This document shows positions 2,257-33,783 of a stretch of DNA of 36,846 nucleotides, in pieces. The notes beneath the pieces were generated by a model. That model searched no databases. It saw only the letters and a program-made list of their open reading frames with translations, and was not told where the DNA came from. How positions within the stretch are numbered: position 1 is the stretch's first letter; each line of letters starts with the position of its first letter. Made by a program: the position numbers and the translations under genes. The DNA is from a virus, in the IMG/VR virus record IMGVR_UViG_3300032524_000088, positions 1 to 36,846 of that record; one strand, 5' to 3'.

Positions 2257-5200
2257 CTATTGAAGGGTTTCGTCACGACTGCGACTCAGCTTTTCTCGTT
2301 TTTTCTCAATGCGAGCGCGTTCCTGCTCTGCCACGCCAGGACTCATAGCATTGCGGGACTCATCCCGATTGATGCGCTTTAATGCATCCGTCAACTCGCG
2401 GTCCTTTTGTTTGTATTCCCACGACCGCATTCTACGCTCGAAATCAACATCTAGCGGCTTGAGTTTGACGCCGACAGAACTCAATCCAGCCTGCGGGACA
2501 GAGTACGGGCGGTCCGAACTATCGCGAACGCCAAGGACCGCGCGCTCGATTTTGTTCCAGTACCACGAACCGGGGATCCATGCGGCCGACGGCATCCAAG
2601 AGCGCCACGCCCAAGCGCCTATGTCTGACAACTGCTCACCCTTGGTGTCGGTCAACGTGTTGAAAATCTCATCGCCTGTGAACGCCTGCTTATTCAGAAA
2701 TAACTCGAACCCCAGCATAATCGGTCCGCCCCATTGTAGCGGCGCAGGCAGGAACGGCATCTGCCCTTGGTTCATGTCGAACATATCCCCGCCGGGTATC
2801 CATCGGCGAATGTCGAGAAAAACTGGGAGCCCATTACGATCCCGCCACGGCATCCGCAGCATTCGCGGAACCATATAGACCCCAGGAATTCCGATCCAAG
2901 TGCTCCCCTTTTCCTCTTCGCGCATTACCCGACGCTCTTCGTCTTCGTCACCCGGCGCCAGCATGTAGGCCATTTCTGCTGCGATCCAACCGAGCAAAGT
3001 GTATTTCGCGATTTTCCAAGGTCTGTGCGCGACGTTTTGCGCGATCAACGGGGCCGCCCGGTAGATGTAGGAAGCAAAAGGCAGAACCGTCCCGCGCGCG
3101 GCGTTCACCCACGGCGCGCGGATGTCGTAATCAATAAACTGGCTGCGCGCGACACGCGCCGCGGTGGCGGCATCGTCACCCATAGCCAGGCGGCGGGTAT
3201 ATGTGGCCATTCGGAAGACTTCATCCTCCATCCGGTATAGATCAAGCGACGCCCTATCGAAGGCGCCGGCCAGCCTCACCGCCCCATTGATAGCCCGCAG
3301 GACGTTGTCAACGAGACTTAACTTTTGCGCCATCCCAGGCTGGCCAACTAAATTCTGGCGCGTGATCTTATCGAGAAGAGGCTTAAGCACCTTCTTACGC
3401 AATTCCTGCGACACGATATCGCCACCGAAAGCGCCATGCGCGACAGCATCTTTGTAGTGCTCGTCTTCCGTGACGTAAGAAACCAGGCCGCGGGCCAAAT
3501 CTTGAAACCGCACATCGGCAAGGTCCATCAGGGCAATATTGGCCATGACGTTGTTCATGTGAACGACAGGGCTGCGGGCGGTTTTGTTCTTCTTCCAAGA
3601 CGTCAGTATCTCGCCCCACAGTCCGGGGTTCGACATCTGATCCATTTCAGAAAGATCGCGCCAGATTTCGGGACGAACGTACATGCCAGAAAGGGCGCCC
3701 CATTTTTTCACGCCGCCGGTTTTGGTGATGGCTGTTTCCGGCACCCGCACCCAATCCGCGCCGCTGGCCAGTTGGTGTTTTAGCTCTCTGCCCTCAACAA
3801 CGACATCGTTGGGGCCAGGCTTTGTAACAGCCCAGTCTCCGTTCTTCGCAATGTCCGAGTACAAGCGTCCGGTCGATAGGTCGCGCGCGAAGTGCATGAA
3901 CGTCTTGGCGATCGCATACCGAGCGTCGACAATCTCGCCCATTTTCTCCCGTTCATCTTTGGTAAAGTCGCGCCAGAGAATGGCGTCCAGCCCCCTAACG
4001 GAGCGAATTTCCCAATCCCCTTGGTCTTGCCAACCTGAAAACCTAACCGGCACCGGCCCCTGGTCCACGGGCCAATACGCCAGCTTTGTGATGCGGTTCG
4101 GGCGCGGGCCTTCCCATACTTCTGTCGGCGGCAAGTCGGCCTGATCGCCTTCGCGGAGCGCCAGCACCTTGATCATCCGACCGACCGCGGCGCCGCGCGT
4201 GACACCTCCCCACCAAGGCGAACTGCGAAGCGTCTTCAACGGAACGACGCGCTCCATGCCGCGACCCTTGAAAGCATCGCCGAGCATCCCTTGCCGGCGC
4301 TTTGTTCGGAAGTCGTCGACCCATTTGATTAGAGGGCCAGCGGGTCCGCGCATGGTCTCCGATTCGTGCCGCAAGTAAGAGCGGTGCAAATACTTACCGC
4401 GGTTACGTTCGTAGGATTCGGCGCTGATAAGGCCGAGGTTTAAGAGTTCCTGACTGTACTCATCAATCGCCAGACGGATGTCGTCGGGCAGGCTTCCCCA
4501 CTGCCCCTCATTGATTTCCTCGCCAGTGAGGATGTCGTACAGGACTTTCGACTCTGCCAGCGTCGTCACGCCTTGAGCGGTCAGTCGCTCTACAATCTCG
4601 ACAGACTGAGCGCCGATGCGCCGTTCGTCCGTTTCGCGCTCCCTGGAACGCTGGATGTATGCGTCAGAAAGGCCGTAACGATCGATCAGTCCGGCGCGTG
4701 CCGTTTCCAAGATATGGGACATAAAGCCGAATCGGCCATCAGGGTCAATTTTGGTCTCGATCAGGGTCTTCTTTATTGCCTCATACATTTTTGTCGTTGG
4801 CGTAAAGTGTCCGTGCTCATCTATCCATGGCGTGAACGGTAGACGGATCGCGCGGTCAAGTGGTTGCCCGGCAGCGAGCCAGCGCATTATCCCGCTCTGT
4901 AGTTTGGCCGGGGGCGTTTTTATCGGCTTGTTTGCATCCGGCGGCTCACTTTCACCGACCGCGAATTTTTCCGTAGCGCCAACAGTATCGCTGTCCCTGG
5001 CAAGGGCCTGTTCGCTCGAGTAACTGGGCACCGGACGGAAAGCCTCGCGCTGGCCGACCTCGCCGCTTTCAAACGCGCGAAGAACATCTTTTAGGTTCTG
5101 GAAGCCACGTCCCCTCAATGCGTTAAACAGGCGTTGGAAGAAATCCTTAACCTTTTGCAAGAGCGGCTTGGTCGCGTTGTCGTACAGCTTTCCAGTGCGA

Positions 5201-8200
5201 CGAAAATCGTCAATCCCGTAGGCGACGGCTTCCTCGAGAACAGCGTCGTATTCAATCCCGGCACGCTCTGCCTGCTCGCGTGATGGAAGCGAGTAGCGGT
5301 CGACCCACTCGGACTCGGCGCGCGCTGTCAAAATTTTCCATTCAGCTTTTGTCCAGAGATTAAGGTTACGCAGCACATGGACCGCTTCATGGCGAACGCT
5401 TGTCTCAGGGTTGCCCCATGCCATTGCGATCGTGACGATATTTTGGCCGCCCGCTGTCTGTCGCGTGACGGCGGCTGCGGGGACCTTCTTGCCCGTCCCG
5501 CCCGATGCAATGGCGGCGGGACCCTCGGCGAACAATCCATCCAACACAAGATCAAGTTTGGCCGCGGGCATAATGCGCCCGGCGGCCTCTCGGACGGCGT
5601 CGGCAATATCGGCGCGAATCTCAGTAACGGGCTTTGAACCAGAAGAAAGTCTGGGCTTGGCTGCCGGGGCATTGTATGCCGCGGCGGGTTCAGTCTCCAA
5701 GTTCCCCTGGCCCACGGCCTCGTCCGTGCCAAACAGGCCCTCGCCCTCAATGCGTTGCTGGTCGCTAGGACCGCGCATCTTGGTTTGCTGACCACGCAAC
5801 CGAGTCGCTTCGGCCGCCTTCTCGCCCCTTAGCCTGGCCAACCGATCCTTGAGCGTTTCTTTTTGTACGGGCGCGATCCCCTCGCCAAGGGTGAAGTTCT
5901 CGCCCTGTTCGGTCTTTTCGGTGACTGGCGCCGCTAGTGGCGGTGGCGGGCTGGCGTCTACCTCTTTTTTATCTCCGACTGCAACTTCACCAGACGTGAC
6001 GCTAGGGCCAAGGCTTCCATCTGCTTTGACAGCGGCAAGGAATTTTGTCCTGACGGCGACAAGAGATCCCCCGGCCTTGAGGGACGCCGCGGCTTCGTTG
6101 AGGGCGTCGGCGATCGGTCCTTTGCGGTTTGCCGATTTGCCGATGATGAGGGCGAGTCGTTCATTTTGCGATAGTCCTTCTCTGTTAGCCTCAGCGTCCA
6201 ACACATTGCCAGCGACCGTCAGCACATCCTCGCCGGTGAGCGCAGTCTGAAATACGCCCTTCATGTTTCGGATCAATTTCAAAGTGCTATCTAGGACCTT
6301 GGCGCGTTCGGCCAGCAATGCGCTGGTAAATGCCTCCGTCCCGAAAAGCGAGTCTTGGGTTTCAACGCTGAACCCGGCATCGCGCACCTGTTCAACGATC
6401 AGGCGAGCTTGCGTCGCATTGTCCGGCGGGCTCTTGGCAAGATATTCCAGAGCCGCAACCTGTTGTGCAGGGTCGGATAACAGCCTGCCAACCTCCACGG
6501 CGTACTGTGGCGGCACGACCTCATTGATTACCATGCCGAAAGCGTCGTCGCCCAGCTTGGCCAGTTCGCGCCCGTCCCGATACGACTTGCGCTGCGGCGG
6601 CACGACCTCGTCGAGAACTACGCTGTTTGTACCGCTGCGAATAACCTTTGCAATATCTAGGGCGCTAGTGCTCTCACCGCCCTCCTGTAGGTTTTTTATC
6701 GCGCCAACTTCACGCGCATATTCAGCAGAAACGCCCTCCGATTCCCGCAAGACAAATGCGCGGATAGGCGCTTCTTGCCCCTCTGCCTGCATCCTCTTGG
6801 CTAGGGCTAGGCGCTGGTGCCCATCTACGATGAATTGTTCGCCAGCGTTATTTTCCCACACGATCGCAACACCGGAAGCGCGCGGGTCGAAACGCTTGAC
6901 GCCTTGAAGCTGGTCCGAAACGCCTTCACTGTCGGTGGCGCTTTTGAACTGAAACCGCTCGGCGTCGGTCTTGATCGTGCTTGGGTCAAGCAGGACCGTG
7001 TCACCGTCCGATTCTGTAGCGGCGGGCGCAGGGGCCGCCACGGGGACCGGCGTTACCTCGGTGGCTTCTGATGTCTGATCCTGTGGTGCCTCGCCAAGAA
7101 TAATGTTTGCGGCTTGCTCGGCGTCCGATGCACCTTCTGAGCCCGCGCCATAGGTGTATGCGTCAGTGATTTCCTCGGTTTCGGCCCCGGTCAACGGTCG
7201 ACCAACTTCCGTGGCGGCGCCCTCGAGGAACTGGCTAAGGCTAGTGCCGCCATCACGCCCAGAGTCCTCCGCTGCGCCAATTATTGCGTCATCAAGCGGG
7301 GTTGCTACCTCTTCGTCACCGAATAGCGACGTGTCATCAACGGGCGGCGCTACGTCAGCGGGCGGCTCAATGTCGTCGCCAAGAAAAGAAGCGTCGCCAC
7401 CGGAAGCCGCAACGGCGCCGCCAAGGGGTGAGGTGCCTTCATTCAGAATATCACTGAGCGGGCTGGCGGCTATATCTTCCGCGCTGCCAAGGCTCAACGA
7501 GTCGATGGGGTTTTTTTGGACACGCCCGCCCCCACCGAAATCGTTAGCGGACCTTCTTCCGCCTATCGCAGTCGCGACAAAGCTGAACAATGCTCCCACT
7601 GTGAAGCCGACCTTGGCGCCCTCTTCGGCGCCCTCAAATACTTTCCGGTCTTCGTCATAACCGACGATTTCCGACGCCACGAGATTGTCGGCAACGGCCT
7701 GAAAAACCTCTTGGATTAACTCTTCGCCACCTCCGATTAAGGTCGCTATTCCCAGCTTCTTCATACCCTGCCGCGTAAACAGACGGCGAACGGCTCCACC
7801 AGTGCCGCGGTCAAGCCTTCCCAGCACCGCTGCTATTGGCGCCGCCTCCGATGTTCCGATTAACGCGCCCAAACCGGCGGCTGTTTCGGCATCCTCGAAT
7901 GAAGCGCCGTTTCTAAGCGCGTCCTCAAATTGATTGGTAGCGCCGGTTGACGCGCCGCTTGCCGCGACTGTCGCAGCCGCCGGCATCCCCAGCACCCGGC
8001 CAACAACGCCTGTCGCTAGAAAGCCAGCAGTAGACCCCAGACCTTCGGGGAATTGTTGCAGCCAGAAATCGCCTTTATATCTCGGGTTCGGCGGCAACTC
8101 TCTTCGGACATAATCCTGTAATGCCTGCCCGGCCTCGTAAAGCGGGTGTTCCCTGGCATCCCGTCGTGCCGGACCAAGACGTTCGCGTATGCGGGCTCTG

Positions 8201-9177
8201 CTTTCGTCGTCACCCCTCTGGTAACTCTTCAAAGTCGAAAAGTAGATGAACGGAATGTCTGCATCGCTTAGAGACAGTTCCTCGCCTGCGTCGACGCGAT
8301 CAAGGGCCGATCGGACCCTGCTCTCGCCAGATGTTATTCCGATCGCAAGAGACTTGGGGACACCAGCAACGACTGCGGTCGTTCCTTGGATAACAGACCT
8401 GCCGAAGCTACTTCGGGCCTCTTCGGCGTCGTTGACGAACTCGTCAAATTTCGAGACTGTCGGGTCAGGCGGCAGGGCAGCGACTGCCTGACCATCGCCA
8501 AGGTCGACAGTCTTCGACAGTTTGCGGAGATAGTTTTGCGTTTCATCCGGCAGCTTCGATACGTCGCCGCCGTCATCAAGCCACTTGTCAGTATTACCCG
8601 GTCCCCAGTTGTAGGCGATTACAGCGTTGCGCTTGCTGCCTTCGTATTTGAGCAGCATCGCGTTGAGGTATTCGGTTCCAAACCGGACATTGTCTTTCGC
8701 ATCGAACGGGTCTTCAAGTTTAGGGATGCCGTAACCAGGGTCCTTGGCGGTCGAGTCCATGACCTGCATGAGGCCCTTCGCGCCGGATCTCGGGTTTACA
8801 GCATTAGGATTGCCACCGCTCTCAATCTCGATAATGCCGTCGATCATAATCTGAGAGGCGACAAACGGGTCATTGCGCCGCCCGCGCGCGGTTGGCGCGA
8901 CCCCGTCGACCAAATCAGGTTGCTCGGGATAGACCTCGGGAACCCTGTTCGGCATCAAGCCAATCTGTGGCTCAGGCTTCCTAGCCACCGGCGCCTCATC
9001 GGGCGCGACATTTACAGGCGGCGGATCTGCGGCTGGCGGACTTACGACCGGCGGCGTTTCCTCTGGGACCACTTCAAGGCGTGGTGCGGCAGGCTCGGGA
9101 GCCTCGTAGTCACGTTCCCACGGTGCCGCCTCGCTGGTTTCCTCTTCGCGGTATACTCGTTCCCACGGCTTCGCCAC
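2257..9177 (-). CDS. Giant internal virion protein: lytic transglycosylase, ParB-like, HEAVH and LPD38-type regions
   Basis: The protein has 2306 aa and starts at GTG 9177, inside the previous stop. The N-terminus has two PWER-x-Y repeats and a Pro/Glu-rich tail. Residues about 106-200 form a soluble lytic transglycosylase domain with ESGGNP (catalytic Glu about E119), GLMQVM and YNWGPGN. Hydrophobic stretches occur at about 380-545. About 727-845 resembles ParB-like domains (VDGHQRLALAKR). A HEAVH motif at about 1263 plus a later Glu-rich EEAVAYG suggests a zincin-like fold. The last third (SPVVHMNNVMANIALMD, then FIDYDIRAPWVNAARG) resembles the large polyvalent protein domain LPD38. Such proteins are packaged in podovirus heads and ejected to open the cell wall and help DNA entry. 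The ParB and peptidase assignments are weaker than the transglycosylase one. No frameshift is seen. Confidence 0.88.
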   Translation of the reverse strand: MAKPWERVYREEETSEAAPWERDYEAPEPAAPRLEVVPEETPPVVSPPAADPPPVNVAPDEAPVARKPEPQIGLMPNRVPEVYPEQPDLVDGVAPTARGRRNDPFVASQIMIDGIIEIESGGNPNAVNPRSGAKGLMQVMDSTAKDPGYGIPKLEDPFDAKDNVRFGTEYLNAMLLKYEGSKRNAVIAYNWGPGNTDKWLDDGGDVSKLPDETQNYLRKLSKTVDLGDGQAVAALPPDPTVSKFDEFVNDAEEARSSFGRSVIQGTTAVVAGVPKSLAIGITSGESRVRSALDRVDAGEELSLSDADIPFIYFSTLKSYQRGDDESRARIRERLGPARRDAREHPLYEAGQALQDYVRRELPPNPRYKGDFWLQQFPEGLGSTAGFLATGVVGRVLGMPAAATVAASGASTGATNQFEDALRNGASFEDAETAAGLGALIGTSEAAPIAAVLGRLDRGTGGAVRRLFTRQGMKKLGIATLIGGGEELIQEVFQAVADNLVASEIVGYDEDRKVFEGAEEGAKVGFTVGALFSFVATAIGGRRSANDFGGGGRVQKNPIDSLSLGSAEDIAASPLSDILNEGTSPLGGAVAASGGDASFLGDDIEPPADVAPPVDDTSLFGDEEVATPLDDAIIGAAEDSGRDGGTSLSQFLEGAATEVGRPLTGAETEEITDAYTYGAGSEGASDAEQAANIILGEAPQDQTSEATEVTPVPVAAPAPAATESDGDTVLLDPSTIKTDAERFQFKSATDSEGVSDQLQGVKRFDPRASGVAIVWENNAGEQFIVDGHQRLALAKRMQAEGQEAPIRAFVLRESEGVSAEYAREVGAIKNLQEGGESTSALDIAKVIRSGTNSVVLDEVVPPQRKSYRDGRELAKLGDDAFGMVINEVVPPQYAVEVGRLLSDPAQQVAALEYLAKSPPDNATQARLIVEQVRDAGFSVETQDSLFGTEAFTSALLAERAKVLDSTLKLIRNMKGVFQTALTGEDVLTVAGNVLDAEANREGLSQNERLALIIGKSANRKGPIADALNEAAASLKAGGSLVAVRTKFLAAVKADGSLGPSVTSGEVAVGDKKEVDASPPPPLAAPVTEKTEQGENFTLGEGIAPVQKETLKDRLARLRGEKAAEATRLRGQQTKMRGPSDQQRIEGEGLFGTDEAVGQGNLETEPAAAYNAPAAKPRLSSGSKPVTEIRADIADAVREAAGRIMPAAKLDLVLDGLFAEGPAAIASGGTGKKVPAAAVTRQTAGGQNIVTIAMAWGNPETSVRHEAVHVLRNLNLWTKAEWKILTARAESEWVDRYSLPSREQAERAGIEYDAVLEEAVAYGIDDFRRTGKLYDNATKPLLQKVKDFFQRLFNALRGRGFQNLKDVLRAFESGEVGQREAFRPVPSYSSEQALARDSDTVGATEKFAVGESEPPDANKPIKTPPAKLQSGIMRWLAAGQPLDRAIRLPFTPWIDEHGHFTPTTKMYEAIKKTLIETKIDPDGRFGFMSHILETARAGLIDRYGLSDAYIQRSRERETDERRIGAQSVEIVERLTAQGVTTLAESKVLYDILTGEEINEGQWGSLPDDIRLAIDEYSQELLNLGLISAESYERNRGKYLHRSYLRHESETMRGPAGPLIKWVDDFRTKRRQGMLGDAFKGRGMERVVPLKTLRSSPWWGGVTRGAAVGRMIKVLALREGDQADLPPTEVWEGPRPNRITKLAYWPVDQGPVPVRFSGWQDQGDWEIRSVRGLDAILWRDFTKDEREKMGEIVDARYAIAKTFMHFARDLSTGRLYSDIAKNGDWAVTKPGPNDVVVEGRELKHQLASGADWVRVPETAITKTGGVKKWGALSGMYVRPEIWRDLSEMDQMSNPGLWGEILTSWKKNKTARSPVVHMNNVMANIALMDLADVRFQDLARGLVSYVTEDEHYKDAVAHGAFGGDIVSQELRKKVLKPLLDKITRQNLVGQPGMAQKLSLVDNVLRAINGAVRLAGAFDRASLDLYRMEDEVFRMATYTRRLAMGDDAATAARVARSQFIDYDIRAPWVNAARGTVLPFASYIYRAAPLIAQNVAHRPWKIAKYTLLGWIAAEMAYMLAPGDEDEERRVMREEEKGSTWIGIPGVYMVPRMLRMPWRDRNGLPVFLDIRRWIPGGDMFDMNQGQMPFLPAPLQWGGPIMLGFELFLNKQAFTGDEIFNTLTDTKGEQLSDIGAWAWRSWMPSAAWIPGSWYWNKIERAVLGVRDSSDRPYSVPQAGLSSVGVKLKPLDVDFERRMRSWEYKQKDRELTDALKRINRDESRNAMSPGVAEQERARIEKKREKLSRSRDETLQ

Positions 9178-24241: not shown

Positions 24242-26379
24242 ACCGACCCGCCGGTTTGCTGGTCAGGGTTGCGCTCTGCCATTGCAATCTCCGCGGCAAG
24301 TTTGCGCTCGCCGCTCTGATTCTGCTCGCGCCCGACCTGGATCTTCGCGGCGAGTTGTTCAGTCGTCATGTTCTTCTTCTCGGCTAGGCTGATCAACGCG
24401 GTCTCTTGATGAATCTGCGCCAGTTGGATTGCGTTCTCGCCTTTGATCTTCTCGATATTAAGCTGAGTTTCCAGCTTCATCATTTCTGGATCAGGCGGCG
24501 GCGGCTCGGCGGCCTTCTCTTTTTCCATCGCCGCAATTTCTTGGTCGGTGCTGTAGAGCTCCCCCGTTGGCAGCATGTGAGCCTGCAACAACTTGCGGAA
24601 CATATTGTCGGCTTTAATCCGAGGTCCGAATATGGGGTGGTCGCTGAAATTCGATACCATCGTCATCAGGTTCTGCGCCTGCAACTCTCGAACGAGCAGA
24701 ACGGAAGAGCCGCGCGCCGCGACTTCAAAGTCACCCTTGATCATGGCCTTTGAACTAAATGCCATGTTCCAGTCGTACTGGCGCCGGATGTTCGGGATGG
24801 TCATGTAGTCGTCGAACTGCTTGACGACGCGGCGGAACACCACGTTGACCGAATTCATCAAGATCGACATGCCCATGCCGGTGTTGCGCGCGCCGGCGCC
24901 CTGCTCTCCTTGGGCGATCATCGGCATGTTCGATTCGTCGTCGGCAAACTTCTGAGCCATTTCGATGATGTTGGCGAGTTCGCCCTGGGCGCTGTCGATC
25001 TTGAACGCCTCGAAAGCCTTCGTCGGGTAGGGCAGGTTCTTTGTTTGCAGCCAGATCTTGCGCGGCGACAACTGCCACTTGCCATCTGCTGGCGTCACCA
25101 AGTCTCGGTTGACCACGATTTGAGGCCCGACACTGAGGCCCGCATTGTCCATGGTCATGCGCCATGCGGCGTTCATCGCAGCTTGAGAGTCGCGCAACAG
25201 GAATGGGACGCCGAAGCCGAATGGGCTTGTGTCGTCCTGCTCGAACGCAAAGGCACTGTAGAGAGGGTCGCCGGTCTCAAGCAGGGGCGGGCCATATTTT
25301 ATGACTTGGCCCTGGCAGAACCAGACAACCGCGTCATGCTCGTCGAGCGGGTCGTATTCTTCCAGGTATTCTAGTTCGTCGTCCAGGTCGTCGCCTTCAC
25401 GATAGGCCATCGCGAGGATTCTCAACTCGACCGCGGTGAGCGGGCCGTGATACTCCCAGACTTGGTATTTTGCGCTTAGGTCGAAGGTCGGCCCGTCGGT
25501 GATGTCGCGCAGCTTCGGCAGGTAGTCCGGCACTGGGTCAACGGGTGAGCCACCTAAAATAGAGCGGATTATATCTGCGTTGAAGCCGGGGACCTTGGCC
25601 ATCTTCCGCAGCTTCTTGGCCGTGTTGGGGTGGCGCTGGAAATGAAACTCGGCCTCGTCCATGTCACGCGCCGACATATCAGGAAAGTAGTTCCAGGGAT
25701 CTACGCGCTCCCAGCCGGGTCGCGGGTCCTTAGAATTCACCATTTTCCAAACACGTTTTGGCGTGCCGCCCGAATCGGGGACTATCTCGCCATCGTCGTT
25801 TAGATCATTGGCCTCTTCGTATGAGCGCCGCATCCGGGTTTCGATCACCGGGCCTTTCATAATGCCCGTACCCATTTTGCAGGCATCATGGATAATTTGG
25901 CGGCACTTGATGTTGTAATTTGCTTGGCCGAGTTGATCGCGAATCTCAGCCCGCATCGCGTCCGCTCTGGCGCGCGCCAACTCGGATATCTGCTTCACCC
26001 TCGCCGCGTCATCGCTGCCGGCGGCAATCAAACTCGACGCGCCGAGAAGTTCAGGGACCGTCGTTGGTGCGATTCCCCAGTTGTCGTCGTCGGTCGGAAA
26101 CAGCATGTCGCTCAATCGCGATTCCCATGCGTGGGTTTTAGACCGGGTCTCATTGATGAAGAGGCGGGATTTCTGTTCAAGCCGTAGAGCGGCCTCTACT
26201 TCTGGATCATAACGACCGTGGTAGGCGCGCAGGTCCTGGGTCCAGCGGTCCTCGATCGTGATCTTCTTCGAGACCTGTTCGTCGGCAAGGTTGCCTAGGC
26301 GCTGCGCTATCTCATGCGAGCGGGTAATGGCGGCGGTGCGTTGTAGCGCACGTTCAGGGTCGGCGTCGTCTAACGACAT
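24238..26379 (-). CDS. Portal protein
   Basis: The product is 713 aa from ATG 26379, which follows the terminase stop directly. The N-terminus has TIEDRWTQDLRAYHGRYDP, then SRLFINETRSKTHAWESRLS and DMLFPTDDDNWGI, the typical start of large podovirus portals. The middle includes WRMTMDNAGLSVGPQIVVNR, and the C-terminus is a long helical Gln/Glu/Lys-rich barrel-like part. Portals form the dodecameric DNA channel and dock the terminase. Order terminase, portal, scaffold and capsid confirms it. Confidence 0.88.
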   Translation of the reverse strand: MSLDDADPERALQRTAAITRSHEIAQRLGNLADEQVSKKITIEDRWTQDLRAYHGRYDPEVEAALRLEQKSRLFINETRSKTHAWESRLSDMLFPTDDDNWGIAPTTVPELLGASSLIAAGSDDAARVKQISELARARADAMRAEIRDQLGQANYNIKCRQIIHDACKMGTGIMKGPVIETRMRRSYEEANDLNDDGEIVPDSGGTPKRVWKMVNSKDPRPGWERVDPWNYFPDMSARDMDEAEFHFQRHPNTAKKLRKMAKVPGFNADIIRSILGGSPVDPVPDYLPKLRDITDGPTFDLSAKYQVWEYHGPLTAVELRILAMAYREGDDLDDELEYLEEYDPLDEHDAVVWFCQGQVIKYGPPLLETGDPLYSAFAFEQDDTSPFGFGVPFLLRDSQAAMNAAWRMTMDNAGLSVGPQIVVNRDLVTPADGKWQLSPRKIWLQTKNLPYPTKAFEAFKIDSAQGELANIIEMAQKFADDESNMPMIAQGEQGAGARNTGMGMSILMNSVNVVFRRVVKQFDDYMTIPNIRRQYDWNMAFSSKAMIKGDFEVAARGSSVLLVRELQAQNLMTMVSNFSDHPIFGPRIKADNMFRKLLQAHMLPTGELYSTDQEIAAMEKEKAAEPPPPDPEMMKLETQLNIEKIKGENAIQLAQIHQETALISLAEKKNMTTEQLAAKIQVGREQNQSGERKLAAEIAMAERNPDQQTGGSV

Positions 26380-27156
26380 CTAGTAGCCACTCCCCGTCAA
26401 ACCGGCGACATGGCCGGTGCCGTCAACGAGTATGTCGACGGGCTTTGTTGTTGCCAGTGGCAGTCCTGATATCACAACAAAGCGGGTGGCGTCCATAAGA
26501 TGGTCATTTTCCTTCACGACCGCGCCGTCCTTGTTCCGTCGATACAGCTTGTACTCGGCCTGCCAATTTCGGCATGAGGCGAAGACCTTCAACTTGCCGC
26601 CAGCAAGCCGTTGCCAAACCATTTGGATTCCGGCGGCTGCTGCTTTCTCCGCGAGGTGAAGGTTCAAACCAAGTTCAACATACTCGACAACCAGTCGGAT
26701 GCCGTCGCGCTGGCTCGAGCCGCGCGAGGCCGGATCGATGACCCCCGGTATCCATTTGCCACGCGCGTTGACCGCAGTGACATGGGTGGATGGCTCCGCA
26801 TGTGCTCGGTAATGCTCGGTGTAGAGATACGACACGTTGGCGTCAGGATCTGTCGCACACCATATCGCCGCGGTGCGGTTCCACCCGACGTCGAGGCCGT
26901 AGCACTTCGGCCAATACTCGGGGATTGAAAACGGCTGGACGACAATTTCAGAAAGGGGAAGGGGGTAGATGGCACCAGCGCCAAGTGCCGGGGCGCCCTC
27001 GGTGCGCGCATCCTTTAGATGCGGCTCGAAAGACGCGCTGAGTTCGGCCTTCTCCTGGGAGTTGAGGTGGGGGACATCGCCTAGTTAGCCCCAGCCAGCT
27101 TGCACGAGGTACTTCGTCGGGGTGACTTCAGGCATCCCGGCCCTCGTGACAAGCAT
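26380..27156 (-). CDS. Large terminase, C-terminal nuclease half, with an in-frame TAA at 27085-27087
   Basis: The frame carries the RNase H-like nuclease of TerL. Metal-binding acidic motifs are visible: YGLDVGWNRTAA, WIPGVIDPASRG and ENDHLMDATRF. Upstream, KYLVQAGWG and, after a stop, GDVPHLNSQEKAELS match the conserved segment that joins the ATPase and nuclease domains. The earliest ATG in frame is at 27156. A TAA after W-G interrupts the frame, and no ATG, GTG or TTG follows until GTG 26835, which lies after the first catalytic Asp. So as annotated the nuclease cannot be made by ordinary initiation. Possibilities are stop readthrough or hopping, joining to the ATPase half at the RNA level, or pseudogene. 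The catalytic residues are intact, arguing against long decay. The half is separated from its ATPase partner by an HNH and a RyR gene. Confidence 0.8.
27079..27090 (-). other. Putative recoding site: stop codon between two matched GGC codons in terL
   Basis: The four codons are GGC TAA CTA GGC on the minus strand. Removing nine nucleotides gives W-G-D-V-P-H-L, matching the usual W-D-D-V-P-H-L of terminases in length. Matched codons with the stop directly after the first are the layout of ribosome-hopping sites, for example T4 gene 60. Readthrough would also keep frame. No recoding has been shown, and a simple inactivating insertion remains possible. Confidence 0.4.
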
Positions 27157-27200
27157 GGCTGGGCAAGCGAGCCCCCTTTCTCATGTTGTCTGTTGCTGAT

Positions 27201-27578
27201 TTAGTCGGCATTACTTCCGGCATCGGTAGCCTCTAGGAATCGGGAGAGCGACGTTACGATCGCCCCGAACAGATGATCCTTCGACCGCAGATCGGTCGGC
27301 ATGTGGTCGTACTGCACCATACACGGATGCTCTTTGGTCTCGGCGTTTTTCATAACGCCGTAGCGCCACCCTGCCTGTTCCTTCTCGTCGTACCAGGACT
27401 GGTGCGACTCTTCCGGCGTCATATCAGGGTTTTGGATTTTGGCGACAACGCCATTCATTAAGCTGGTCTTCTGCCAGTCAGGGGCTTCGTCCCAGGCGAC
27501 CTGCGACGTGTCGCCGAGGCTTTCGCAATAAGCCCGGTTCACCTCATGGCAAACCCTCGCAATATCGATTTCCCTCAT
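27201..27578 (-). CDS. RyR-domain protein
   Basis: The product is 125 aa from ATG 27578, in a TAATG junction with the HNH gene. The sequence IARVCHEVNRAYCESLGD, then WDEAPDWQKTSLMNGV, PEESHQSWYDEKEQAGW, YGVMKNAETKEHPCMVQYD and LRSKDHLFGAIV is the single RyR repeat found in many phages and bacteria, named after ryanodine receptors. Its phage function is unknown. Here it lies with an HNH gene inside the split terminase locus, an uncommon place, so it was probably carried in as part of a mobile cassette. Confidence 0.85.
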   Translation of the reverse strand: MREIDIARVCHEVNRAYCESLGDTSQVAWDEAPDWQKTSLMNGVVAKIQNPDMTPEESHQSWYDEKEQAGWRYGVMKNAETKEHPCMVQYDHMPTDLRSKDHLFGAIVTSLSRFLEATDAGSNAD

Positions 27579-28246
27579 TAGTGCGTCCTTTCGTTCTCTG
27601 GCGGGTATCTCATATCCGGGGGGCCGACCGCCAGTGTGACGTCCCCCACGGCATTGACGAGCGTGAATATCGGCGTCATCGGCGCGCAACCCTCGCGGAT
27701 CAAAAGCTGGCCGTCCTTGTCGATCCGCATCAGCCAGCCCTGCCCGTCAGGGTGCGGGACCGCGAACAGATCCCCTGCCGGCGCTACAGGCCTCAGAAGA
27801 CCAAAGGCCAGGGATGCCGGCGCCATGTAGAACTGCCAATTTAGAGTAGGGTCGCCCTCGACGACTGCCACGTTGGGATCAAGCCCGACAATCTCGCACA
27901 TCGCGCAAGCCAGTTTCACATGCTCCGGGTCGACCTGGAATCCTAGCGGGTCTTGGCCCGCGGTCTCTAGCGCGATCGCAACACGTTCCTGTGGCATAGC
28001 GTTGGGCCGCGACGAAAGGGAAGCCTTTGTCGCATTGCACCCCCTGCAGATCAGGCGAAGGTTCTCGCGGTCGTCGCTGCCTCCATCTGCGCGGGTTATG
28101 ACATGGTCTAGGGTGGCGTGGGTGCTGGGCGGCTTGCCGCCGCTCATGTTCAGCACCATACGGCGCTGGCACTCAGGGCACCTCTTGTCCGTGCTTTCGT
28201 TAAAAAGCGATCGCCGAATATCTTTGCCGCCAGGAATTCTCGTCAC
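27578..28246 (-). CDS. HNH endonuclease with extra C-terminal domain, inserted in the terminase locus
   Basis: The product is 222 aa from GTG 28246 with AAAGGG upstream. The first 80 residues form an HNH nuclease: zinc pairs CPECQRRM and CRGCNATKAS, and catalytic LDHVITRADGGSDDRENLRLI. Residues about 85-222 are of unknown type (PEHVKLACAMCEIVGLDPNV, GWLMRIDKDGQLLIREG) and may be a DNA-binding part. The gene starts 33 bp after the stop of the TerL ATPase half and, with the RyR gene, parts it from the nuclease half. This is the behaviour of a free-standing homing endonuclease that inserts in essential phage genes. Confidence 0.82.
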   Translation of the reverse strand: MTRIPGGKDIRRSLFNESTDKRCPECQRRMVLNMSGGKPPSTHATLDHVITRADGGSDDRENLRLICRGCNATKASLSSRPNAMPQERVAIALETAGQDPLGFQVDPEHVKLACAMCEIVGLDPNVAVVEGDPTLNWQFYMAPASLAFGLLRPVAPAGDLFAVPHPDGQGWLMRIDKDGQLLIREGCAPMTPIFTLVNAVGDVTLAVGPPDMRYPPENERTH

Positions 28247-28278
28247 TGCTCGCCCTTTCCATACTGATATTTCGGAAC

Positions 28279-30891
28279 TTAACCCAAGTCGGTTCTAAAG
28301 TCATCGCCGCCCGGTTTCATTTCCGTCGGCATGAACGACAGCACGACCTCGGTCAGACCGAGAATGGGCGTAAATGTCAACATGATCATACCGCCAGATC
28401 CGGGCATGGACGATATGCCCGTCGTCCGAACTAGGCACTCGCCGTAGACATCCATCGGGCATTCCTCGTCGAGCCAAATGCCGTCTTGCTCTGTGCCCTC
28501 AAAAGAGCCGGAACCTTGTTGGTAGCTGTTGCCGACGCGGAACCCGTTGACGATCAATTCGTGGACGCCCTCGACGCCGACGCAGTAAACGTCTTTGTTG
28601 CCGGCCTCGGTGATGCTTAATATTTCTGCCCTAGGCCCCTTTGGTCTTGGCTTTATGTTGCACTCATTGTCACGATTCATCTTTCCTATTTCCAAAAACT
28701 TGATCCGCTCATGGCCGTGGAGCGGAACGTAGAACGTCTTGAATTTCTTATCTGGCCCGCTAAATTGGTTGGTCGTGAAAGTGGTTTTTACCGGGGCCTG
28801 AATATCCAACGTCCACAAAAGACGCTGCACGTCCGGGGCTAACCGAGGACTAGATGTGCTGTACGTCGCATCTTTCGAGGTCACAGACCCGTCGCAAGTC
28901 CAAAGCCACCGCATGAATAGTTCCCGCTGCCGATGCGGCAACGTAAAAACCCATGCTGGTATAAACTTGTCCAAAGATTTCAGCCCCCACAAACCGTCGG
29001 CCCTCAAACTTTCAGTCAAACGGTTGCGTTTGTGAAGAGACGACGCCACCCTGTACGTTATTGTGTCGCCCACACGATTGATGGATAGATCGACCGGCAG
29101 AATAGCCGATAGCGCCTCGACAATCGGCGGCTCATTACAGGTGAAGAAAGGGCTCCCGGCCCTCATGCACCCGTCGCCAATCATTACGGCCGTGGCTGCA
29201 ACCAGCCAATCATCGGTCTCGGCAGCGTCGTCTGGTTCATGGTACGCGATTGAAAGTTCGTCGCCGATCGCAAGATCTCCTGCCAGCACCTCGGCGCCGG
29301 CCGCCGTGAAAAAAGGATGGTTTGGCGTGGCCTCGATCGTTCCCGTCCTTGTCTCGATCAACAATACCGGAGCGTCAGAGTAGGCGTGGAGTTGAACGAC
29401 GGGCCTCGCATTCCCGTCTGGCGACCGAACTAATTCTCCCAATCTGACCTGATCAATCCCCCTCCATTCGCCGTTGGCCATCAAGACCCGTTCAGTAGCC
29501 GGGTGGCACTTAAAGCCAAGTGTCGACCACCGACCTGTCGGCTTATGCAACACCGGGATGGCATCGACGAAGTCGGCGACGCCCTGCTTCCAGGTCGGCT
29601 TGCCAAGCAGTTCGCCGGGGATCAGCCCCGTGCCGTCAACTGTCTTGTTGGTGCCGCCCTTGCCGATGATCTTGCCCAACATCTTGCGCTGGATGATGTC
29701 GCGGGTTGTCTCGTTGGTCTTCCCGGCGGCCCACCAATTAACCGGGCGCTTCCATCGCCGCCCTTCCCACCAGTCAGGATATTCGCCGGTGACGTGGCAT
29801 GTGGTCTCGTAGCCGCCGCCGCCTACGGTATTATGATGCACCATCCCGCCAGCAAGATAGTTGTGCAGTCTGGGAACCGTGAAGTCATATACATCTTGGC
29901 CGCCAATTGGTTCATAGGCTATGATGTCTTTGACTGACATCATAGGGATCGGGTATGGCCAGATTTTCCAAGGAGCGGCGGCTTCAATTAGAGGCGAGGC
30001 TGCCGGATTTAGTTGAGACGCAAAGCCTACAGCACACCCGAGTGGCGGTGATTCTCGGCGTGAGTGAAGACTGGGTTCAGCGAGCGTGCAAGCGTCTTGG
30101 CCTGATAACGCAGAAGACCGGGCCGCGGCCGAGTGGGCAGCGCCAACCAATCTTGCGGGGGGGCTATCGTTACATCTATCAGCCTGACCACCCATACGCG
30201 ACAAAGGCCGGGTATATGCTTGAGCATCGCCTTGTGATGGAAGAGAAGACTGGCCGCCACCTACTGCCTGGGCAGGTTGTCCACCATGTGAACGGGGACT
30301 CCCTGGATAACCGGCCAAAGAACTTGATGGTGTTCGAATCCAAGGCGGATCATCTGCGCCACGAACTGACAGGGAAATGCCCAAAGTGGACGCCAGCGGG
30401 ACGCGACCGAATGATAGCAGGGACTCGACAAGCCGCCATGCGCCGTCGACAAGCACGCGATGATGATCAGCGCACTCGACCCACTGACCGTTCCGAAGGT
30501 AAAGGCGGTAACATTGGTGGCGGCCGGATTTCTTGAATGGTGCGCTCGCTACCGCTGGCACTACCTGCATCCCATCCCATGACAGAACGCTAAACGGGAG
30601 GGCAGCCTCGAACAGCGACCCTACAGTTCTGCGGCCGGTTGGAGTGTCGATAAGTGTTTGAAAAGACAAACATTTTCCAATTCTGTTGCCAGCCATGAAA
30701 CACCGCTCGCGGTAGATCGCGCCGGCGCGGAAGAACTCGAGGTGCTTTTGATATTTGACGCGGGCGTAGGGGCCGGTGTCGGGGTACATGCTGTAGAACA
30801 GCCGCTGCCCGTTGCGGCGCTCGATTTCCTTCGTAAGGGCTTCTATGTCGTCGCCCTCGGGATCGGCACTAATCGATTCGAGCAGGCCCAT
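28279..30891 (-). CDS. Large terminase ATPase half carrying two inteins
   Basis: The frame of 870 codons holds three exteins of 73, 107 and 82 aa (262 aa after splicing). The N-extein (RLFYSMYPDTGPYARVKYQK, then MAGNRIGK) ends at the Walker A Lys. After intein 1 it continues TVGGGGYET, and after intein 2 SYQQGSGSFEGTEQDGIWLD with Walker B (IWLDEE) and the coupling motif LTFTP. The product would be the motor ATPase that packages DNA. It stops after DFRTDLG, before the usual nuclease domain, which lies in a separate frame at 26380-27156. Mutual dependence is likely: without splicing of intein 1 the P-loop is broken. No clear RBS stands right before ATG 30891; GGAG is about 17 bases upstream. 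Confidence 0.9.
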   Translation of the reverse strand: MGLLESISADPEGDDIEALTKEIERRNGQRLFYSMYPDTGPYARVKYQKHLEFFRAGAIYRERCFMAGNRIGKCLSFQTLIDTPTGRRTVGSLFEAALPFSVLSWDGMQVVPAVASAPFKKSGRHQCYRLYLRNGQWVECADHHRVLVDGAWRLVESLLSFGRVPLASTLGISLSVRGADDPPWIRTPSSSLAGYPGSPRSHGGQPAQAVGGGQSSLPSQGDAQAYTRPLSRMGGQADRCNDSPPARLVGAAHSAAARSSALSGQDACTLAEPSLHSRRESPPLGCAVGFASQLNPAASPLIEAAAPWKIWPYPIPMMSVKDIIAYEPIGGQDVYDFTVPRLHNYLAGGMVHHNTVGGGGYETTCHVTGEYPDWWEGRRWKRPVNWWAAGKTNETTRDIIQRKMLGKIIGKGGTNKTVDGTGLIPGELLGKPTWKQGVADFVDAIPVLHKPTGRWSTLGFKCHPATERVLMANGEWRGIDQVRLGELVRSPDGNARPVVQLHAYSDAPVLLIETRTGTIEATPNHPFFTAAGAEVLAGDLAIGDELSIAYHEPDDAAETDDWLVAATAVMIGDGCMRAGSPFFTCNEPPIVEALSAILPVDLSINRVGDTITYRVASSLHKRNRLTESLRADGLWGLKSLDKFIPAWVFTLPHRQRELFMRWLWTCDGSVTSKDATYSTSSPRLAPDVQRLLWTLDIQAPVKTTFTTNQFSGPDKKFKTFYVPLHGHERIKFLEIGKMNRDNECNIKPRPKGPRAEILSITEAGNKDVYCVGVEGVHELIVNGFRVGNSYQQGSGSFEGTEQDGIWLDEECPMDVYGECLVRTTGISSMPGSGGMIMLTFTPILGLTEVVLSFMPTEMKPGGDDFRTDLG
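28528..29508 (-). mobile_element. Intein 2 (327 aa) with LAGLIDADG endonuclease, before Walker B
   Basis: It covers TerL residues C462-N788, between STLGFK and SYQQGS. Splicing blocks are: A, CHPATERVLMANGEW; B, GTIEATPNHPFFT with the Thr and His; and C-terminal F/G, VYCVGVEGVHELIVNGFRVG then N. The last residues are G-N instead of the common H-N, a known variant; the +1 residue is Ser. The middle has two LAGLIDADG-type helices (LVAATAVMIGDGC and LFMRWLWTCDGS), each with its catalytic Asp, and a KFIPAWV block between. The homing endonuclease therefore looks active. Self-excision restores a normal TerL segment. Confidence 0.9.
29830..30672 (-). mobile_element. Intein 1 (281 aa) in the Walker A motif, with antisense nested HNH gene
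   Basis: It covers TerL residues C74-N354, between GNRIGK and TVGGGG, so the P-loop Lys-Thr pair is formed only after splicing. Block A starts CLSFQTLIDTPTGRRTVGS. Block B is WVECADHHRV, with His present but the usual Thr replaced by Ala. The C-terminal blocks are VYDFTVPRLHNYLAGGMVHH then N, with the H-N end and +1 Thr. No sense-strand endonuclease exists. Between the blocks is a hydrophilic stretch rich in Ser, Pro, Gly, Ala, Arg and Gln (about intein residues 100-230), which lies opposite the HNH gene at 29955-30536. The intein therefore seems to be a splicing domain whose homing enzyme is encoded on the other strand. Confidence 0.9.
29955..30536 (+). CDS. HNH homing endonuclease encoded antisense within intein 1
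   Basis: The product is 193 aa from ATG 29955, with an AGGGATCGGG ribosome-binding sequence ahead. The N-terminus holds a helix-turn-helix (LQHTRVAVILGVSEDWVQRA). Residues about 70-140 are an HNH_3 nuclease: YRYIYQPDHPYATKAGYM, then LEHRLVMEEKTGR, LLPGQVVHHVNGDSLDNRPK, then NLMVFESKADHLRH, with the catalytic His pair and Asn. A basic tail follows. It is the only plus-strand gene in the whole leftward block. It is fully inside the intein and covers intein residues about 46-240, including the antisense of block B. Its codon first, second and third positions face the intein's first, third and second positions. A promoter of its own is needed and I could not identify it. Confidence 0.88.
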   Translation: MARFSKERRLQLEARLPDLVETQSLQHTRVAVILGVSEDWVQRACKRLGLITQKTGPRPSGQRQPILRGGYRYIYQPDHPYATKAGYMLEHRLVMEEKTGRHLLPGQVVHHVNGDSLDNRPKNLMVFESKADHLRHELTGKCPKWTPAGRDRMIAGTRQAAMRRRQARDDDQRTRPTDRSEGKGGNIGGGRIS

Positions 30892-30937
30892 TCGTAATCG
30901 CTATCACGCTCCAAGGATTGTCGGCAAGATTATAGCA

Positions 30938-31162
30938 TCACTCGACCACATGCTCGTCGGCGAGCGGCCGCGGCTCCACGCCCGGTTGCAGTGCTCGCAC
31001 GAAGCCGGACGACACGGCGCCAGCAAAGCGGTCGGCCATGATCGCCAGATAGACGATCACATATCGATCGATATCGTCGCCAGAAAGGCCCCGCGCCACG
31101 GCGGCGTCCCGCGCCTCTTTGAGACGAGCCGTGGCGCCGGGCGGCATGTCAACGCCGGTCAA
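30938..31162 (-). CDS. Small hypothetical protein upstream of the terminase
   Basis: The product is 74 aa from ATG 31162, overlapping the J-domain stop. Helical and acidic at both ends, with a short hydrophobic helix (DRYVIVYLAIMADRFAG, about residues 32-48). Not recognised. It sits directly before terL, where a terminase partner might be expected, but it does not look like TerS, for which a better candidate lies at 36582. Confidence 0.6.
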   Translation of the reverse strand: MTGVDMPPGATARLKEARDAAVARGLSGDDIDRYVIVYLAIMADRFAGAVSSGFVRALQPGVEPRPLADEHVVE

Positions 31163-31749
31163 GCCAATTCCTCCCGTGCGTGAGACACAGCATCAACGAT
31201 TCGGTTGAACTCCGCAGGATGACCGCCGCGGTCCGGGTGCTTATCCTTCACCAATTCGCGGTAGCGCCGATCGACCTGAGCCCGAGTAACCGTCGCCTCG
31301 TTCTTGCCGAACAGCACCACCCGCCACGGCGCCTCGATCTGGCCAGCCGGGCCGGTCGGCGGCGGAAGCGCAGCAAACCCGCGGAACGACGCGCGCACGA
31401 TGTTCAGCCCGCCGTGGCGCATCTTCGCCCGCTCTGCCTCGATCACCTTAGCTATCGCCTGTAGATTTTCTTCCGGCTTGCCGTAGCGGTCGATCGCGAT
31501 GCAGCAATCAATCCCTTCCCACTGGAAATAAGCGGCGACTCCGGCGTCGGACGGGCGTTGCACACCTAGCGTTACGTTCGACGACAGCACAAGCGCCGTC
31601 ACACCCTTGCCAGTGTCGTTGCCAAAGCGGCGCAGTTCATCTTTCACGTTGTTCAGCGCCGCATTGAGCGTCGATGTAAAGCGACTCTTCATGGGCGACT
31701 TCGTCCGCGCGAACCCTCGCGGCCACGTCAGCGGATATGCTTCGGTCAA
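31159..31749 (-). CDS. J-domain (DnaJ-like) phage protein
   Basis: The product is 196 aa from ATG 31749. The C-terminal 60 residues form a J-domain (RAQVDRRYRELVKDKHPDRG, then GHPAEFNRIVDAVSHAREEL) with the HPD tripeptide needed to stimulate host DnaK. The N-terminal 130 residues (ALVLSSNVTLGVQRPSDAGV, AAYFQWEGIDCCIAID) are common to a family of phage J-proteins with unknown substrates. It is coupled by ATGA overlap to its neighbours. It may recruit the host chaperone to replication or assembly complexes. Confidence 0.85.
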   Translation of the reverse strand: MTEAYPLTWPRGFARTKSPMKSRFTSTLNAALNNVKDELRRFGNDTGKGVTALVLSSNVTLGVQRPSDAGVAAYFQWEGIDCCIAIDRYGKPEENLQAIAKVIEAERAKMRHGGLNIVRASFRGFAALPPPTGPAGQIEAPWRVVLFGKNEATVTRAQVDRRYRELVKDKHPDRGGHPAEFNRIVDAVSHAREELA

Positions 31750-33707: not shown

Positions 33708-33783
33708 TGGTGCCCCGTCCACGGGATCGAACCTGGGACCTACTCCTTACAAGGGGGCTGCTCTGCCACTGAGCTAACGGGGC
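33708..33783 (-). tRNA. tRNA-Thr (UGU)
   Basis: The cloverleaf is complete: acceptor GCCCCGT with ACGGGGC, D-stem GCTC/GAGC, anticodon loop CTTGTAA with anticodon TGT (Thr, ACA), T-loop TTCGATC, and encoded CCA. Two flaws stand out: a C-A mismatch in the anticodon stem, and one extra G in the 3' side of the T-stem (CCAGG with CC-G-TGG), giving 76 nt. Phage tRNAs supplement host pools for rare codons. Whether the bulge is tolerated is unknown. Confidence 0.88.

Follow-up and report, generated by a model that had tools for sequence, protein, structure and literature searches.

A split terminase gene with an internal stop codon

The second gene of the split large terminase (TerL) of the virus described here carries an in-frame TAA after its sixteenth codon, and this stop is probably a programmed recoding site that entered the split gene along with an HNH endonuclease cassette. 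The DNA analysed is a 36.8-kb virus record, taken at its full length (the window); among named phages, it matches EBPR podovirus 1 best, at about 57% identity in the C-half part. The N-half gene of TerL terminates in ...GLTEVVLSFMPTEMKPGGDDFRTDLG and a stop codon at position 28279, the C-half starts at 27135, and no second TerL was found in the window as a whole. The features discussed below are collected in Table 1.

Table 1. Coordinates of the terminase genes, endonuclease cassette, insert and predicted RNA stems in the window.
Feature	Positions	Strand	Evidence or remark
N-half gene of TerL: ATPase core, interrupted by two intein-like insertions	28279..30891	-	TerL pieces 30828-30670, 29832-29545, 28536-28327
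HNH endonuclease gene A (HNH-A), between TerL halves	27578..28246	-	Pfam PF01844, E=1.3e-9
RyR-domain gene, between HNH-A and C-half	27201..27689	-	Pfam PF02026
HNH endonuclease gene B (HNH-B) remnant, final 23 codons and TGA, overlapping C-half start (ATGCCTGA)	27128..27199	-	tblastn with L002 HNH, 74% identity, residues 132-154
Outer stem, 5' strand GGGGGCUCG, within HNH-B tail	27168..27176	-	Predicted fold
Inner stem, 5' arm CCCAGCCAUGCUUGUCACGAGG, within HNH-B tail; GAGG a possible ribosome-binding site	27142..27163	-	Predicted fold
TerL C-half, codons 1-16 up to stop, MPEVTPTKYLVQAGWG	27088..27135	-	Similar start in about 20 distinct relatives
Inner stem, 3' arm CCUCGUGCAAGCUGGCUGGG, coding; last codon is the one preceding the stop	27090..27109	-	Predicted fold; compensatory pairs
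9-nt insert with in-frame TAA (27087-27085), GGC TAA CTA GGC	27079..27090	-	Counterpart in L002: CAT TAG TTA AAC
Outer stem, 3' strand CGAUGUCCCC, directly past insert	27070..27079	-	Predicted fold
TerL C-half remainder (DVPHL..., lid and RNase H-like nuclease)	26380..27078	-	Pfam PF17289, PHROG 5653; purifying selection

Read on the minus strand, positions 27093-27070 are TGG GGC TAA CTA GGC GAT GTC CCC, and translation of the C-half from ATG 27135 gives MPEVTPTKYLVQAGW-G-TAA-L-G-DVPHL; the original prediction of a TAA bracketed by GGC codons, in W-G-stop-L-G-D-V, thus described the site exactly. The frame is open from the ATG to the stop (MPEVTPTKYLVQAGWG) and again from the stop to a TAG at 26380. 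All three acidic motifs of the nuclease (GLDVGW, GVIDPA and HLMDATR) are intact downstream, and there is no ATG, GTG or TTG between the stop and the first of them (GLDVG), the earliest listed in-frame start being GTG 26835; on both points the prediction was borne out.

It had also pointed to neighbouring endonucleases, and two HNH genes are involved: HNH-A lies between the TerL halves and HNH-B directly upstream of the C-half, intact in the independent contig L002 and reduced to its tail in the window. A search of viral contigs for relatives of HNH-B returned L002 itself only. Most of HNH-B appears to have been replaced in the window by the RyR-domain gene, and the related contigs L003 and L004 carry a frameshifted HNH-B remnant (L003 1064-1191) directly ahead of an uninterrupted C-half that lacks both the 26-nt hairpin arm described below and the 9-nt insert.

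The TerL split itself probably predates the HNH/RyR cassette, since about 20 distinct relatives share this type of C-half start, opening with MP[EA][IV] and carrying [KR]YL[VI]QA, and since in L106 (at about 3104) the stop codon of the N-half shares bases with the start of the C-half, at ACGGCGATGCCTGA, and no insert separates the genes. A split ATPase with its last core strand on the second gene, as in L106, recurs in many environmental phages. The N-half of the window is itself interrupted by two intein-like insertions, one near the Walker A lysine (GNRIGK/CLSF...HHN/TVGG) and the other at about residues 465-784, with LAGLIDADG and Hint matches; the first insertion contains, on the opposite strand, a further HNH endonuclease ORF (PF13392; 29955-30536, plus strand). 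Elsewhere in the window, the start of a 2306-aa ORF (2257-9177, minus strand) resembles a lytic transglycosylase by eye.

Conservation of the insert and of the frame beyond it

L002, which is about 65% identical to the window at the amino acid level in the nuclease part, reads TGG CAT TAG TTA AAC GAC GTT at the homologous codon: a 9-nt in-frame insert with a different type of stop. Between the two inserts the stop (TAA>TAG) and the Leu codon (CTA>TTA) differ only synonymously, and the codons that flank the gap, identical in the window (GGC/GGC), are mismatched in L002 (CAT/AAC). A second stop, in the +1 frame and one base beyond the first, is found in both (UAA-C-UAG in the window, UAG-U-UAA in L002), so that the pattern UAR-Y-UAR is kept. 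That the stop stems from a sequencing or assembly error, or from a mutation private to this contig, might be suspected of a single environmental virus record; with a diverged version of the insert on an independent contig, and a hairpin co-adapted to it, we regard this as extremely improbable.

The insert is absent from the other 97 of 97 matches, all of which have exactly one residue between the Trp and DVPH, in keeping with the claim that W-x-D-V-P-H-L is a conserved motif. The closest insert-free relatives, L003 and L004 (63% identity), read TGG AGC GAT GTG. The window and L002 are the only insert carriers among the IMG/VR relatives found: pattern scans of IMG/VR for 9-nt inserts with TAR or TGA and for 6-nt inserts with TAR returned L002 and chance hits and no third member, and blastn of the element against phages gave no match. 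One scan of GTDB found one relative, whose stop site was left out of the comparison. The element is therefore described from two sequences, and these may descend from one recent transfer: DNA identity between the window and L002 is 80-84% in the hairpin region vs 63% downstream, which makes a recent sharing of this region possible. The nuclease part of L002 is slightly nearer to that of L003 than to that of the window.

Over 232 codons, the differences between the window and L002 number 74 at first, 48 at second and 137 at third codon positions; for the first 60 codons past the insert the corresponding counts are 24, 12 and 39. Judged by these differences, the nuclease part is under purifying selection that starts directly past the stop. 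Of 68 columns that are highly conserved among relatives, 6 deviate in the window (all conservatively) and 7 in L002, against 0-5 in the other relatives; because 6 and 7 slightly exceed the usual range, some relaxation of constraint in these two phages is conceivable.

These observations bear on whether the TAA is a true stop, in which case only a 16-residue peptide would be made, the nuclease would come from an unseen start or be decaying, and the hairpin would control only initiation at ATG 27135, hiding a possible ribosome-binding site. The slight excess of deviations at the highly conserved columns would fit decay, as the pairing of GAGG ahead of the ATG in the predicted hairpin would fit control of initiation. 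Against this stand the constraint on the reading frame immediately past the stop, the lack of a start codon before the first acidic motif, the lack of another TerL in the window, the conservative nature of every deviation in the window, and the co-occurrence of hairpin and stop in two lineages; on balance we consider a true stop unlikely.

An RNA hairpin around the stop

The RNA from the HNH-B tail to about codon 25 of the C-half is predicted to fold into one long hairpin (-65.7 kcal/mol in the window, -59.2 in L002), the 5' arm of which is the tail of the HNH-B gene. The 5' strand is continuous and pairs on either side of the insert, most of which falls within the 3' side of an asymmetric internal loop. 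The GAGG ahead of ATG 27135 is paired, and the top helix, CACGAGG:CCUCGUG, occupies the stretch 16-22 nt 5' of the stop. A stable take-off stem-loop containing the stop was not found; there is only a 2-3 bp inverted repeat around it (CUA-AC-UAG in the window, UUA-GU-UAA in L002).

Several comparisons indicate that this hairpin is conserved beyond synonymous constraint in both phages. Its folding energy gives z scores against dinucleotide shuffles of -5.4 (window) and -4.4 (L002), vs -3.0 to +2.0 at 20 other split loci, and of 400 synonymous recodings, made in either arm or in both, not one was as stable, in the window and in L002 alike. A consensus structure for the two phages contains 35 pairs, of which 30 are unchanged, three changed on both sides, two on one side and none broken; the compensatory pairs of the inner stem include CG>UA and AU>UA. 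When the 31 variable columns were filled with random replacements, 24 of 2000 sequences were as stable as L002, and when L002's own letters were redistributed over the same columns, 89 of 2000 were. That nothing of HNH-B is left in the window but the tail supplying the 5' arm suggests retention of the hairpin for its own sake.

Template switching could match the hairpin arms to one another without selection, and quasi-palindrome repair by this route was considered as the origin of the insert. We do not think that it explains the insert, because copying the 5' strand would give W-A-S-E-P-P and not DVPHL.

The pairing of one strand with both flanks could also be read as a splint on which the bulged insert is removed from the RNA by some unrecognised, intron-like excision. 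A search of 26000-31500 against Rfam, even at E<=1, turned up neither an intron nor a ribozyme, and we know of no bacterial system that excises so short a piece of RNA, so that this reading has very little to recommend it. A conventional intron was rejected on the same search, and at the gathering threshold the only Rfam match in the whole window is a tRNA. Nor can a splice between the two TerL halves remove the stop, because the exon-like KYLVQAGW precedes it and the stop would remain.

How the stop may be passed

Under programmed recoding, initiation at ATG 27135 would be coupled to the HNH-B remnant, the end of which overlaps the start of the C-half; ribosomes would translate MPEVTPTKYLVQAGWG and reach the UAA, and a fraction of them would continue beyond it and synthesise the lid and nuclease. 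The geometry of the fold would put the top helix just outside the ribosome once the stop occupies the A site, so that the hairpin, with its upstream 5' arm, could re-form behind the ribosome and pull the mRNA, the next helices zipping as the mRNA moves. From the sequences we infer that ribosomes pass the stop, by which route they do so, and that the hairpin pulls on the mRNA.

The most likely single route, tentative as it is, is a short bypass of nine bases that restores a W-x-D-V-P-H-L of normal length. It is favoured because of an anatomy like that of T4 gene 60 and because of the invariant W-x-DVPH spacing. The specific hop originally proposed, from GGC to GGC over nine bases, is only partly upheld: matched codons are present in the window, but as they are not common to L002, where a move from CAT to AAC nine bases on would pair at two of three positions, an exact hop between them is one option only.

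This lack of a matched landing codon in L002 counts against bypassing, and the conserved Leu codon (CTA/TTA) fits programmed readthrough equally well. A near-cognate tRNA would then read UAA in the window and UAG in L002 to give W-G-X-L-G-D-V-P-H-L, with three extra residues, perhaps at a low level, so that little nuclease would be made. Readthrough requires no matched codons and so fits both phages; the stop and Leu codon change only synonymously while the flanking codons vary, and the in-frame stop is followed by a conserved in-frame coding extension. It sits less well with the W-x-DVPH length, invariant in 97 matches, and with stops that are UAA and UAG and not the leakier UGA; the structure, moreover, lies mostly 5' of the stop and not downstream of it. 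The stops stand in the contexts UAA-C (window) and UAG-U (L002). When an unsplit relative is modelled with AlphaFold (mean pLDDT 81.6), the Trp (W242) lies just past the strand E235-240 and ahead of the next helices, a placement that is silent on the tolerance of three extra residues. We rate readthrough as a possibility nearly as likely as the bypass; a true stop or another route takes up the rest.

Two other means of passing the stop were discarded. A reassigned stop codon does not fit the remaining genes, because all three stops terminate them (TAG 15, TGA 14 and TAA 8 among the major ORFs of the window, with all three likewise used on the L002 contig). As to a suppressor tRNA, the sole tRNA found in the window is a tRNA-Thr (anticodon TGT; 33708-33783, minus strand).

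Comparison with known systems

The one well-studied case of natural bypassing in phages is T4 gene 60, in which a topoisomerase gene is split by a homing endonuclease and a 50-nt insert lies near the start of the C-terminal gene; the take-off codon is followed immediately by a stop, and the pull on the mRNA is believed to come from a 5' stem-loop that pairs at its top just outside the ribosome (PMC5009743; PMC11194080). The likeness suggested by the original prediction holds in several respects. Here, too, a gene is split with an HNH endonuclease gene at the junction, directly upstream of the C-half; close to the beginning of the C-half the putative take-off codon has a stop immediately behind it (GGC-TAA in the window, CAT-TAG in L002), and a predicted, compensated upstream stem-loop (z -5.4/-4.4, three compensated pairs) would be able to re-form behind the ribosome. 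The Gly before the stop and the matched Gly codons are shared by the window only. The likeness fails in that the codon match is not kept in L002 and there is no take-off stem-loop; the gap is nine bases and in frame vs 50 nt and out of frame, the gene encodes a terminase vs a topoisomerase, and the nascent peptide before the stop, at 16 residues, is shorter than the gene 60 signal.

It may nevertheless be, and we put this forward with more doubt than confidence, that the nine-base, stop-containing gap in this split terminase is a new natural case of phage bypassing, spread by an HNH cassette that supplies the 5' arm of the hairpin and not needing strictly matched codons. If so, another phage gene in which an endonuclease-linked split, a stop and a 5' hairpin come with a minimal gap would show which of these ingredients are essential, and would support the spreading of such inserts by endonucleases, possibly for self-protection; that the insert might protect against HNH-B is an idea borrowed from the T4 case (PMC5009743). 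If the stop is read through instead, an essential motor gene of bacteriophages would contain a conserved readthrough site with UAA or UAG.

The large terminase of Streptomyces phage phiHau3, in which a bypass is likely at a UUA codon (reviewed in PMC5009743), is also a phage terminase with W-G directly ahead of the site and an HNH gene in the same genome region. It was considered as the same site and rejected, being located elsewhere in the gene: the phiHau3 site comes early (KGWG, at about codon 95), lies at a UUA codon and entails a change of frame, whereas here a stop lies in the W-x-DVPH motif. The byp elements of Magnusiomyces mitochondria are short inserts skipped in translation, some of them without perfectly matched codons (PMC5009743); unlike the single phage site described here, with its specific hairpin, they are found in yeast mitochondria, are many per genome and are seemingly independent of mRNA context. 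Finally, in the synthetic stop-hops of Weiss et al. (1987), as cited in PMC5009743, matched codons flank a stop and nine bases specify one residue. The window resembles these constructs in the matched codons around its stop and in the single residue that would come from the whole stretch; it differs from them in that 12 bases would specify one Gly, and in a natural gene.
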